Below are positions 6,461-26,700 of a stretch of 40,759 nt of DNA, one piece after another. Made by a program: the position numbers and the translations under genes. The stretch lies in IMG/VR virus record IMGVR_UViG_3300036770_005499, positions 1 through 40,759 of that record; one strand, written 5' to 3'. How positions within the stretch are numbered: position 1 is the first letter of the stretch; each line of letters opens with the position of its first letter. The notes below the pieces were generated by a model, which worked only from the letters and a program-made list of their open reading frames with translations, was not told the DNA's origin and did no database searches. This stretch comes from a virus.

Positions 6461-6495
6461 TTTTTCTTCTCCTGCTCAGTGATGAAACGACACTA

Positions 6496-6536
6496 CCCCA
6501 CTCGCTTGATGACAACCGTGGGGCAAGCGAGTGGGG
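6496..6536 (-). terminator. Strong hairpin after the VWA gene
   Basis: CCCCACTCGCTTG (6496-6508) and CAAGCGAGTGGGG (6524-6536) form a 13-bp perfect stem just past the stop at 6593. There is no T-run, so it may terminate weakly or protect the 3' end. Confidence 0.6.
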
Positions 6537-6592
6537 TGTGTTGTTGTCGGTGACCGTATCGCCAGTTTCCCAGCAACACGGTCACCGAATTC

Positions 6593-8095
6593 TCATGAGA
6601 GTTCTACTCCCATTTTGCTCTTGTAGGTGGTTCGGAATTGGTAGGGCCAGCGTGACTTGACCTTGTTGCCGTTCTTCATTTTCTTGAGAGCGTCAACTGC
6701 TTCCGTGACGTAGGGCAGAACGATGATGTTGTTCTTGATGCAGTAGTTGATGCACTGCATTCCCATAATGTCGGAGTACCCACCATGCGATGGGCACACA
6801 CCGCCGTCTGTCACCCAAATAATCGGTGAACGTGCAGACTGACGGTTCTTGACTGCCCACTCAATTGCAGGGAAGTCCACGCCGTTGCCGTGACCGAACA
6901 CGTCAGGAAGTTCGTTCACCATTTTGCCCTTGTCAGCGATGACCCACATGTTCGGGCCTTTGTCTCCACGGTCGGTGTAAGCGACCACGGTTGCGCCAGG
7001 AGCGTTTTCCACCATTTGACGGATTTGGTCATGGGTGAATGACATGGAGCCTGAAGCGTCGATGACTACGACCCCACCAGTGCCACGACTGACCTTGTCA
7101 AAGATTCGCTTTTCGGGGTCGGTCAGCAGTCGGTGAATTCGGCGTGGCGAGCGACCGATGTTGGATGCGATTCGCTTCTTGCCGATGTTGCCCTTTGTCT
7201 GCTTCGGCATGGCACACCGCTCAATTTTGAGTTCTCCCCACTGCGGTGGTGTTGCGCCGTTGTAGGAGTCGGGCGTGATGCCTTTGTACGGGTTGCCAGT
7301 GGCAGAGCCGTCACCAGCACCGCCGTTGGAGTGACCACCAGCAGGGTTGTGCTTCTTCGGACGACCACGCTTCTTCGGCGTTGCCGATGACTCGCCCTCA
7401 CCCGTGGCTTCGCCCTCGGACGTTGCGGTTCCAGCCTCGTCCGAATCCTCGTCAGGAACGATACTGGCAAGGCGGTCAACCCATTCTGCGATGCGCTCGG
7501 TGTGAGTGAAGCCAAGCGGTGCGAGACCAGTGCGCCTGTCAACAGCGGTTGATGCCAGCGTTCCAGTCTTGTACGCCTTCTCCATTTCCTTGACTGCTCG
7601 CTTGGAAATGTCAGCAAGGATTTCTCCCCACTTGCGGTTGTGGCGACGCACACCAGTCAGGAACGCTTTGTTGGATGCAGTGCCAGCCGTGGCAATTGCC
7701 ATGCACACTGCGCCTTCCCAGTCCTTGACTGCCGTGACACGCTCGCCGTCAGCAGTCTCACCGCCGTCAGTGAGGTTGCCCTTCACGTCAAAGCCAGCCT
7801 TTTGGCAGAGCAGGTTGACTCGCAATTCCTCAACAACGGTCATGGCCTTGTTCGTGGCGATTTTGCGGTTGACCCACTCACGGTACGATTCGGCAGGAGT
7901 GACCTTGGCATGCATGAGTTCATGCGCACGAATCACACGGGCGAGAACGCTGTCATGCGGTGGCACGACCATTTCACGGGTGACGATGTTCGTGCGAGGT
8001 TCGCCACGGCGAGCGTTGCACTCGCTCACCGACCACTGTCCGTGTTCGGTGTCGTGACGGCCCAACAGTTCAGGCTCAACAGTGATGTTCGCCAT
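6593..8095 (-). CDS. VWA-domain protein with HExxH N-terminal domain (MoxR partner)
   Basis: This 500-residue protein has an N-terminal metallopeptidase-like motif AHELMHAK (HELMH at 58-62). A low-complexity Gly/Thr/Lys linker with KKRGRPKK, an AT-hook-like run, spans about residues 225-265. A C-terminal von Willebrand A domain with the MIDAS motif DASGS lies near residue 345, with a second TDGG near 422. Such proteins work with a MoxR-type AAA ATPase as a metal-dependent chaperone pair. It abuts the ATPase gene (stop/start at 8095), so the two are co-expressed from promoter copy L2. Confidence 0.85.
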   Translation of the reverse strand: MANITVEPELLGRHDTEHGQWSVSECNARRGEPRTNIVTREMVVPPHDSVLARVIRAHELMHAKVTPAESYREWVNRKIATNKAMTVVEELRVNLLCQKAGFDVKGNLTDGGETADGERVTAVKDWEGAVCMAIATAGTASNKAFLTGVRRHNRKWGEILADISKRAVKEMEKAYKTGTLASTAVDRRTGLAPLGFTHTERIAEWVDRLASIVPDEDSDEAGTATSEGEATGEGESSATPKKRGRPKKHNPAGGHSNGGAGDGSATGNPYKGITPDSYNGATPPQWGELKIERCAMPKQTKGNIGKKRIASNIGRSPRRIHRLLTDPEKRIFDKVSRGTGGVVVIDASGSMSFTHDQIRQMVENAPGATVVAYTDRGDKGPNMWVIADKGKMVNELPDVFGHGNGVDFPAIEWAVKNRQSARSPIIWVTDGGVCPSHGGYSDIMGMQCINYCIKNNIIVLPYVTEAVDALKKMKNGNKVKSRWPYQFRTTYKSKMGVELS

Positions 8096-11384: not shown

Positions 11385-11530
11385 CCCGCCGTCTTCCACC
11401 ACCGTTGTGTTTGTTGCGTTTGTGTCCCCGCTTTCTAGAGCAAGCGAGCCCGCTAGCGGGAGTTAGCAGGCGCGGCGGGGCTTTCAAAACTGTCATCCAG
11501 CATGCTCGAAGCCCCGATCTCAATTGCTGT

Positions 11531-17912: not shown

Positions 17913-18001
17913 AGGTCGCCGGGGCTTCCGGGGTTCGTGCGCGTTCCAGCTGAAGCCCCGGGCATAAATCAGAAAGTAGCAGAAAAGTATTTTGACGAAA
18001 A

Positions 18002-19388: not shown

Positions 19389-19445
19389 CTCACCCGTCGG
19401 CTTCTCCTTCTTCGCTCGGCGGGTGAGATTTTTTTATAAGCACCG
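19389..19445 (+). terminator. Rho-independent terminator
   Basis: CTCACCCG and CGGGTGAG close a 33-base loop and run into seven Ts; adjoining ATCT/AGAT extends pairing. Confidence 0.8.
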
Positions 19446-19518
19446 GGGCTTCCGCGCGCGCAGATCGGAACCAACGAAGCCCCGCGTAGGCGCACCAGCA
19501 CGAAGGGTCAGGCGAGAC

Positions 19519-20019: not shown

Positions 20020-20098
20020 CCTTCGGCTCCCGGGGCTTCCGCGAGTGGCGCGCTGTTCGTACGAAGCCCCGCCCATGCTCCGACGTGGAACGGCGGGC

Positions 20099-22100: not shown

Positions 22101-22358
22101 ATGTCTACACGGGTTTCCTTCCACAACACCACGAACGTAAAGGCAGAAATCTATGCCAATACGGCAGAGGGTTCGCATCACTTCGCCTGCATGACCCTCA
22201 CGTTCACCGACGAAAAGGGCAGCACGTTCAGTCTCGATGTTTTCGGGCCAGTCGGCAGAGAGGGTGTCGAAAAGGCTCTCGATGACTTCTGGCGGTTCGG
22301 AACGGCAATCGCCATCGCCGCTACCGATGCGAGGATTGCTCTCCCCGCTTCGGTTTAG
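22101..22358 (+). CDS. Hypothetical beta protein
   Basis: This 85-residue product starts at ATG 22101 behind AGAAAGAGG. It is a beta-rich pattern (RVSFHNTTNVKAEIYANT and FACMTLTFTDEKGSTFSLDVF) with a helix REGVEKALDDFWRF. No family was recognised. Confidence 0.72.
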   Translation: MSTRVSFHNTTNVKAEIYANTAEGSHHFACMTLTFTDEKGSTFSLDVFGPVGREGVEKALDDFWRFGTAIAIAATDARIALPASV

Positions 22359-22365
22359 CGGGGAG
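22341..22365 (+). terminator. Hairpin overlapping the stop codon
   Basis: CTCCCCGCT and AGCGGGGAG pair across the end of gene 22101-22358. Confidence 0.6.
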
Positions 22366-22484
22366 TCCCCACGGGGGGCGGGGGAAACCCTGCCCCCCTT
22401 CTGCCGATGTGCAAGCGGGGCTTTGAGGCCAGTGGGTCAGCACGGCTGAAGCCCCGTTTCAAGGCGCACTAATGGCGGTCGGGT

Positions 22485-22938: not shown

Positions 22939-23346
22939 ATGCCAGACAACAGCGCAAACCTCACCCGTAACACCTACCCGTGCCCGAACCACCCCCACGC
23001 GAACCTCGCGCCGATGCCCTCGTCCCCGACGCTTGAGGAAATCGCGGCGTGGCTCGGCCGCCAGCGTTCCACGTTCTTCGCGTCCCTCGCGGCGTATTTC
23101 GCCGCGCGCGGCAGGTTCACGCCCAAGCAGGAAAAGTACGCGCGCAACGCCTACTATCAGGCGGCGCACCTGCGCCAGATGTACCTCGCGAGCGGCCGCA
23201 CCCACGATTGGGCGCACACCGAGACGCGCCACGGCAACGTCGGGAGTTGGGAACTCGGAACCTACCGCAACGTGCAGGTCTACGCCTGCACCCGCTGCGG
23301 CGAGGTTCGCGAGACCGTGGAGTGGAACAACTACTCGGGGGACTAG
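22939..23346 (+). CDS. Hypothetical zinc-type protein with helical middle
   Basis: This 135-residue gene has an N-terminal CPNHPH, a long helical middle (EEIAAWLGRQRSTFFASLAAYFAARG), and a C-terminal Cys knuckle ACTRCGEVRETVEW. No family was recognised. The 13-bp repeat follows. Confidence 0.7.
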   Translation: MPDNSANLTRNTYPCPNHPHANLAPMPSSPTLEEIAAWLGRQRSTFFASLAAYFAARGRFTPKQEKYARNAYYQAAHLRQMYLASGRTHDWAHTETRHGNVGSWELGTYRNVQVYACTRCGEVRETVEWNNYSGD

Positions 23347-23385
23347 CCCCCGAGGGAGTCTCTTCCGCCACCGTCAAAGGTTCCG

Positions 23386-23410
23386 CCCCTCGGGTCTCGC
23401 CCCCGAGGGG
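23386..23410 (+). terminator. GC-rich hairpin after the 13-bp repeat
   Basis: CCCCTCGGG pairs with CCCGAGGGG; a second hairpin CGAACGCTTGTTCG follows. Confidence 0.6.
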
Positions 23411-23790: not shown

Positions 23791-24003
23791 ATGACACAGC
23801 GCACCACCACCTACGCAGTTTGGTACGCCTCGGCTGGGTGTCTCTCGGACTCGGGCTATCCCGAGTTTGTGGGGACGCTCGCAGAATGCGAGGCCTTCAT
23901 TGAGGAGAACGAGGACGACTACAAGCGTCCCGAGGTTCAGCACGACCTCTACTCACTCTCCATCGGACAGGTCGGGTATCCCGAAGAGGAGGAGGGGGAC
24001 TAG
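23791..24003 (+). CDS. Hypothetical protein
   Basis: This 70-residue leaderless gene has TTYAVWYASAGCLSDSGYPEF then GTLAECEAFIEEN, a pattern seen in phage small proteins of unknown role. The C terminus is acidic. Confidence 0.7.
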   Translation: MTQRTTTYAVWYASAGCLSDSGYPEFVGTLAECEAFIEENEDDYKRPEVQHDLYSLSIGQVGYPEEEEGD

Positions 24004-24058
24004 TCCCCCAAATCTCCCCAGAGCCCCGCAGCCTAGCGGCACTGCTAGGCGGCATGAC

Positions 24059-24085
24059 TAGGAAACTCCAGCCACGTTGGTATTG
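24059..24085 (+). promoter_or_regulatory. Repeated promoter, copy R25 (drives an RNA)
   Basis: Motif with TATTGT; no ATG follows, but a strongly structured RNA does. Confidence 0.8.
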
Positions 24086-24091
24086 TCTATT

Positions 24092-24206
24092 TACCGAGCG
24101 AGTCGGGGAACTGAAGAGGGTACAAGGTAGACCCTAATCGGTTAGTCCCCCCTGGTGTAAGGGGTGCGGGTAGCCGACAGGATTCCCCGATTCGTTCGGC
24201 ACTAAT
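24092..24206 (+). ncRNA. Structured phage RNA closed by a 17-bp stem
   Basis: A start site six or seven bases past the -10 box falls at about 24092. CCGAGCGAGTCGGGGAA (24094-24110) pairs with TTCCCCGATTCGTTCGG (24183-24199) over 17 positions, three of them G-U. Inside, GGG-TACAAGGTAGA-CCC and GGTGCGGGTAGCC-type pairings are possible. There is no open frame. No known family was recognised. The length (about 106 nt between stem ends) excludes most terminators. Confidence 0.65.
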
Positions 24207-24211
24207 CCTTG

Positions 24212-24238
24212 TAGGAAACTCCAGCCACGTCGGTATAG
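24212..24238 (+). promoter_or_regulatory. Repeated promoter, copy R26
   Basis: Full motif; TATAGT, seven bases, ATG 24246. Confidence 0.85.
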
Positions 24239-24245
24239 TCTCTTC

Positions 24246-24455
24246 ATGCTGGTGCGTGGTTGCAAGATTCGGGAAAACGACGGGATTCGTGTGAACGGGA
24301 AGGTTCTCATCGTTTCGTCGGTTCAGGCAGAAGAGGCGTTTGAGTCGGTCGGAATCTTCGTCAGACCGCTTGGGCGTGGCAAGGCTCACGACGTTCTAGT
24401 GTTCGTCGGCAGAGACGAACTGGTGCAGGTAATCCGAGACAGGAAGGGAAAATAG
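24246..24455 (+). CDS. Hypothetical beta protein
   Basis: This 69-residue gene is beta-rich (CKIRENDGIRVNGKVLIVSSVQAEEAFESVGIFVRPL). It ends just before the next gene in the same operon, whose start lies two bases past its stop. No family was recognised. Confidence 0.7.
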   Translation: MLVRGCKIRENDGIRVNGKVLIVSSVQAEEAFESVGIFVRPLGRGKAHDVLVFVGRDELVQVIRDRKGK

Positions 24456-25275: not shown

Positions 25276-25432
25276 GCTCTCTTCCGCCACCGTCAAAGGT
25301 TGGGGGGTGGGGGCGACCCTGCCCCCCGCCAGAATGCCCCCGCCGAAAACTTTTCTAGGGCGCACCGGGGCTTCCGCGCGCAGTCGTCGTGCCACTCGAA
25401 GCCCCGTCCGAGGCGCGCAGGGCGGTCGGGCA

Positions 25433-25928: not shown

Positions 25929-26006
25929 CCCTGCCCCTGCAAGTCCTTAGTCGGGGCTTCGGGGGAATGTGGACACGGTCGAAGCCCCGTCCGAGGCGCA
26001 CACTGC

Positions 26007-26153
26007 CCCTGATCGGCCCGGTGATCGGCCCCTGATCGGCCCCTGATTGGCCCGGTGATCGGCCCCTGATTGGCCCGGTGATCGGCCCCTGATCGGCCCC
26101 TGATCGGCGGGTGATCGGCCCCTGATCGGCCCCTGATCGGCGGGTGATCGGCG
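26007..26153 (+). repeat. Iteron-like array of GATCGGCC units
   Basis: Thirteen copies of GATYGG follow at alternating 11- and 12-base spacing (CCCCT and CCCGGT linkers). One copy per helical turn suggests cooperative protein binding. No gene is in this 150-bp stretch. Confidence 0.75.
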
Positions 26154-26596: not shown

Positions 26597-26700
26597 GGCC
26601 CCTGATCGACCCGTGCCCCTGATCGACCCGTGCCCCTGATCGACCCGTGCCCCTGATCGACCCGCTACGGGCGGCCTGATCGACCCGCTACGGGCGGCCT
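26597..26700 (+). repeat. Second iteron-like array of GATCGACCC units
   Basis: Five GATCGACCC units: three at 17-base spacing (CCCGTGCCCCT linkers), then two with a CGCTACGGGCGGCCT linker at 23-base spacing. It lies just upstream of copy R31. Confidence 0.7.

Follow-up and report, generated by a model that had tools for sequence, protein, structure and literature searches.

The locus lies in a linear IMG/VR virus record of 40.8 kb, analysed at its full length and referred to here as the window. The source is an uncultured bacterial virus, probably an actinobacterial phage, and the window carries a DNA helicase gene (32125-34026) as well as SSB, DUF932 and DUF3846 genes. In its middle part, almost all small genes carry a private copy of one promoter (consensus TAGGAAACYCCAGCC-N5-GGTATAG; about 46 near-identical copies), and, counted from the first G of GGTATAG, the A of the ATG usually falls on base 15, which makes these genes leaderless. 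Start-associated repeated elements (SAS) are found just upstream of many genes in cluster K actinophages; these bear on the promoter and not on the RNA described below. The preliminary description had singled out one promoter copy that is followed by no ATG. The sequence TAGGAAACTCCAGCCACGTTGGTATTG was indeed found at this site (Table 1), and its usual +1 carries no ATG. It is the only copy that lacks both an ATG at +1 and an evident ORF leader, since all others appear to precede either an ORF with a short leader or one whose ATG is at +1, and it has by far the lowest z-score among the copies (-6.0; runner-up -3.4). A small hairpin separates this promoter from the upstream ORF, whose stop codon lies at 24003.

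Table 1. Features at the RNA locus, in window coordinates.
Feature	Position	Strand	Remarks
Small terminator-like hairpin	24031..24050	+	GCCTAGC..GCTAGGC, without a T run; read from sequence
Phage promoter copy	24059..24085	+	TAGGAAACTCCAGCC upstream element, 5-nt spacer, -10 region GGTATTG; 1 of about 46 copies
Putative +1	24093	+	A, 15th base from first G of GGTATTG; from promoter register
P1, 5' arm	24094..24110	+	17 bp with 24183-24199; pairing conserved, sequence free
P1b	24111..24113	+	CTG pairing with CAG 24178-24180; 3' side followed by 2-nt bulge 24181-24182
P2 hairpin	24117..24135	+	AGGGU-ACAAGGUAG-ACCCU; identical in L092
P3 hairpin	24138..24177	+	two compensatory pairs relative to L092; apical loop GGNGUA kept
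P1, 3' arm	24183..24199	+	
Next promoter copy	24212..24245	+	serves leaderless 69-aa ORF at 24246

Downstream of the promoter, the sequence starts with A-CCGAGCGAGTCGGGGAA and closes with TTCCCCGATTCGTTCGG. The two arms pair contiguously at 17 of 17 positions, as had been claimed, with 15 Watson-Crick and two G-U pairs, and the 72 nt that they enclose (24111-24182) fold as a three-way junction bearing hairpins P2 and P3. Folding against shuffled controls, an approach put forward in the preliminary description, was carried out on 24089-24206 and gave -60.6 kcal/mol with z = -6.5, and none of 200 dinucleotide shuffles was as good; the longer stretch 24059-24240 gave z = -3.5. No clear intrinsic terminator was found downstream of the window copy. 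When 2258 segments covering both strands of the window were scanned, the RNA ranked only about 21st by z-score, with some 20 segments equal or better, which reflects the abundance of terminator-like hairpins, palindromes and DnaA-box inverted repeats in the window. Many of those inspected belonged to the DnaA-box cluster or were palindromes or hairpins of terminator type. The fold clearly exceeds random expectation without being unique in the window, and selection is evidenced by a homologue rather than by energy.

This homologue is located on contig IMGVR_UViG_3300042924_006323 (L092), which was retrieved by a search with the DUF3846 protein encoded downstream of the RNA. The RNA core is 88% identical over 75 nt on the opposite strand (E about 5e-22), and the alignment of the two RNAs is gapless, with 20 differences in 94 columns. 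In the inner 11 pairs of P1, 11 of 22 bases differ and all pairs are preserved; outside P1, only nine of 72 positions differ (eight in the 71-column junction-and-loop core and one in the bulge). A check for covariation in homologues revealed that 33 of 33 pairs form in both RNAs, with seven double compensatory changes, one one-sided change and no broken pair. When partners were slid by one to three columns, 36-55% of positions were paired with at most one double change. RNAalifold recovered the same structure from the two sequences unaided, and the L092 RNA folded alone gave z = -3.6. The covariation rests on two sequences, and the floor of a two-row shuffle control is about 1% (5/500). A 34-nt invariant run was dropped as strong evidence, because runs of this length are common between the window and L092 (15 in 5.7 kb of aligned sequence, mostly coding DNA) and are not exceptional for a mosaic pair.

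The promoters of L092 are of another kind (TGTAGCATGNNNTAGG-N5-GGTATAATG). A variant, GGTATACTGGAGTC followed by A-CAAGAGAGGGA, precedes the RNA with spacing identical to that in the window. Counted from the first G of GGTAT, base 15 is an A in both RNAs and lies immediately 5' of P1, although the promoter elements are unrelated; in the window this is the register in which the A of the ATG sits in leaderless genes, and in L092 it corresponds to 9919 on the minus strand. The identical spacing behind L092's own promoter indicates that a +1 one base 5' of P1 is conserved and that the upstream element of the promoter is not. Together, the compensatory changes and a phage-specific promoter at identical spacing support the original proposal of a promoter-driven structured RNA kept by selection. 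Of the reasons first given for selection over chance, the G-U pairs and the fixed promoter are weak by themselves, and the case is instead made by the homologue. From comparison of the two sequences, it is very probable that the RNA is genuine and is maintained by selection.

The earlier statement that no RNA family could be recognised also holds, as the window has no Rfam 15 covariance-model match at the gathering score. Nothing credible was found around the RNA at E values up to 5 in either the window or L092, and neither 6S RNA nor phi29-type pRNA gave an Rfam match. BLASTN of the RNA against 50,697 phage records and against a plasmid collection yielded no match. Among 84,980 genomes of bacteria and archaea, a pattern for the core gave zero and one chance match, none of them real. 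In IMG/VR it retrieved only L092, apart from an unrelated coding match found on three contigs. Covariance model R1 detected only the window and L092 in a search of 95 loci, 33 further pieces and 48 complete records of related viruses, several of which span 100-170 kb. No second copy is present in either record, and L092 is the sole viral contig with the L092-type promoter pattern. In the distant relative G005, the promoter motif searched for precedes leadered genes only, and no such RNA is present. These homologue searches would miss relatives with altered P2 loops, and the collections may omit near records. As far as the libraries searched go, the family is new and narrowly distributed.

Several resemblances to known RNAs were considered and rejected. 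CUGAAGA matches part of the hammerhead ribozyme core (CUGANGA ... GAAA), but UAA stands where GAA is required, and there is no Rfam match. Mimicry of the 16S rRNA 3' end was suggested by the identity of the P2 loop ACAAGGUAG to 16S around 1500-1508 and, in L092, additionally by CGGUUGG-UCACC; the local alignment score was equalled by 46-76% of shuffles, which is chance level. A likeness to a tRNA D-arm was seen by eye only, and no tRNA or tmRNA was called at the locus.

The pattern of constraint offers an indication of function. P1 is constrained by pairing only, whereas the junction, the stem and loop of P2, the proximal stem of P3 and its apical loop are constrained by sequence. What is conserved is the junction with stem and loops rather than a lone single-stranded seed, so that binding of a protein in trans appears most likely. 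We propose a stand-alone phage non-coding RNA gene whose product acts in trans through protein binding, with the junction and P2 as recognition surface, and give this reading about an even chance. The phage promoter would start the transcript at 24093, one base 5' of the basal stem, to give an RNA of about 107 nt or longer. P1, free in sequence, would then clamp the structure and seal its two ends; lying beside the 5' end, it would also shield the RNA from end-dependent decay. The P2 hairpin, which is invariant, would form the working surface together with the apical loop of P3 and the conserved three-way junction, and the RNA could serve as a decoy or scaffold for its putative protein partner during infection. 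The 69-aa protein encoded downstream, which was considered as a partner and set aside, has no Pfam match, and its AlphaFold model is of low confidence (pLDDT 54).

Alternatively, the RNA could be a base-pairing sRNA in which the P2 loop or the junction pairs with a host or phage mRNA and the stems only stabilise it. The P2 loop is invariant and predicted to be unpaired, and an 8- to 9-nt complement (CTACCTTGT) lies within the same homologous ORF of each phage (at 17578 in the window and 5616 in L092). This gene is 83% identical between the phages in any case, however, and the match lies away from the start and is at chance level. The P2 stem and the junction are also conserved as strictly as the loop, which would be unusual for an sRNA that acts through a seed alone, and we regard this alternative as unlikely.

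A decoy for a CsrA/RsmA-type protein, which could share with the CsrB/RsmZ sponges an action through hairpin loops, is very unlikely. P2, GUAC[AAGGUA]G, does resemble the consensus of CsrA SELEX ligands, RUAC[ARGGAU]GU, in which the GGA is 100% conserved (PMC7652899). Every letter of RUACARGG agrees, and the loop likewise has six bases and is closed by the same C-G pair, but the invariant GGA reads GGU in both phages. CsrB/RsmZ RNAs carry several GGA loops; here, a GGA is found only in the P3 loop of L092, and the window RNA has a single CsrA-like loop in place of the many in such sponges. CsrA (PF02599) did not rise above cut-off in eight related phage records. A more elaborate proposal, to which we assign a low probability, is that the RNA represents a new class and uses its invariant hairpin to capture an RNA-binding protein of host or phage. 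This protein might be a CsrA-like regulator of altered specificity, and the RNA gene would move between phages as a cassette, re-fitted with the private promoter of each phage.

The arrangement in L092 bears on whether the RNA has a gene of its own. In the window, the RNA lies on the plus strand directly upstream of the 69-aa ORF, from which no clear terminator separates it, so that it could be envisaged as a cis element of the downstream operon, acting as attenuator, leader or processing stem. However, this ORF has its own promoter copy and leaderless start just downstream of the RNA, which is thus not a leader that the gene needs. In L092, the same ORF (94% identical) keeps its promoter with no RNA upstream, and the RNA is found about 1.3 kb away, inverted, on the minus strand between other genes. 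It is convergent with the preceding gene there, and a CGGGGCTTC..GAGCCCCG hairpin comes after the RNA and stands between the two. A leader of the 69-aa gene was accordingly rejected, and a cis element in general is largely refuted and highly improbable. The differing position and orientation instead indicate a separate cassette with its own gene. Protein coding on either strand was likewise rejected, as comparison of the window and L092 revealed no conserved reading frame in six frames, only stops or mostly non-synonymous changes. With its own promoter, no conserved ORF and a structure with compensatory change, the locus has the attributes of a phage-encoded structured non-coding RNA. A DNA-level inverted repeat that merely resembles an RNA (MITE, recombination site or single-strand replication origin) would fit the relocated, inverted copy and the many inverted repeats of the window, but is equally improbable given that both phages start the element exactly one base past the +1 of their own promoters, whose upstream elements are unrelated, that the loops and junction, needless for a cruciform, are conserved, and that neither record has a second copy.

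Small non-coding RNAs of the cluster A mycobacteriophages L5, D29 and StarStuff are likewise actinophage-encoded, promoter-driven and without an assigned function; they are abundant and map to the right genome end (a region of about 500 bp) or to the D29 63-64 intergenic gap (PMC5712189). The window RNA differs in genome position, and has no BLASTN match among the phage records searched. Phage non-coding RNAs are also found at the prophage origins of parABS mycobacteriophages such as RedRock and Alma, where they adjoin parA (PMC7157519). The window does hold a DnaA-box cluster (about 30150-30226) and a parS-like palindrome, but the RNA lies 6 kb from this cluster and its gene moves independently. 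The window RNA showed no similarity to the RNAs of RedRock-type origins, BLASTN giving no match to phages, and no ParA or ParB domain was found in the neighbours and larger ORFs scanned.

Other elements were observed in the window. A putative replication origin at 30118-30240 consists of the parS-like palindrome TGTTCCACGTGGAACA followed by DnaA boxes (TTATCCACA) in both orientations, and a 38- to 39-nt part of it has a match in non-coding DNA of Streptomyces phage Karp, and also in SparkleGoddess. An intergenic hairpin, CGGGGCTTC...GAAGCCCCG, recurs close to promoters and gene ends (11476-11516, 17920-17960, 19444-19484, 20031-20071, 25366-25406 and 29751-29791) and is probably a shared terminator; TCTTCCRCCACCGT also recurs at gene ends. 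Intergenic stretches 22285-22480 (plus strand) and 6481-6640 (minus strand) surpass the RNA in folding strength (z = -8.4 and -7.4, respectively) and resemble paired terminator hairpins. Tandem short repeats of the GCCCCTGATCGGC type occupy intergenic 26005-26152 and 26598-26700 and are present in L009 with a different copy number. An ARAGORN call of tRNA-Pyl (CUA) at 23309-23403 is probably false, because it overlaps an ORF end and a GGGGGACTAGCCCCC hairpin.

The promoters themselves change in concert between relatives. At all orthologous promoters seen in close relatives (90-96% DNA identity), the upstream element TAGGAAACTCCAGCC (type 1) is replaced by GGTAACRCACCGTANTC (type 2), with the -10 region and the genes unchanged; L092 has a third element, TGTAGCATGNNNTAG (type 3). 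With two mismatches allowed, copies of types 1/2/3 number 49/0/0 in the window, 0/8/0 in L009, 0/6/0 in L010, 0/3/0 in L089 and 0/0/33 in L092, and no contig mixes types, save for one lone type-1-like match in L136. Around the swapped elements, DNA identity to the window is 96% for L089 and up to about 90% for L009 and L010. The distant relative G005 (loci L128-L135) again has a private repeated element: GGTAGATAAGT occurs more than 40 times, close to a different promoter, AAGTCTGAACC-N-GTGGTACNGT. The concerted switch implies that dozens of sites co-evolve with the specificity of a phage regulator or sigma factor. As whole promoter sets are switched together, co-evolution of a phage regulator with its sites becomes directly testable, and this switch may matter more than the RNA.

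Functional RNAs of phages are under-recorded because annotation looks for proteins. Compensatory change between two phages without common promoter elements makes the RNA a credible new family, and a candidate host-takeover or counter-defence factor.
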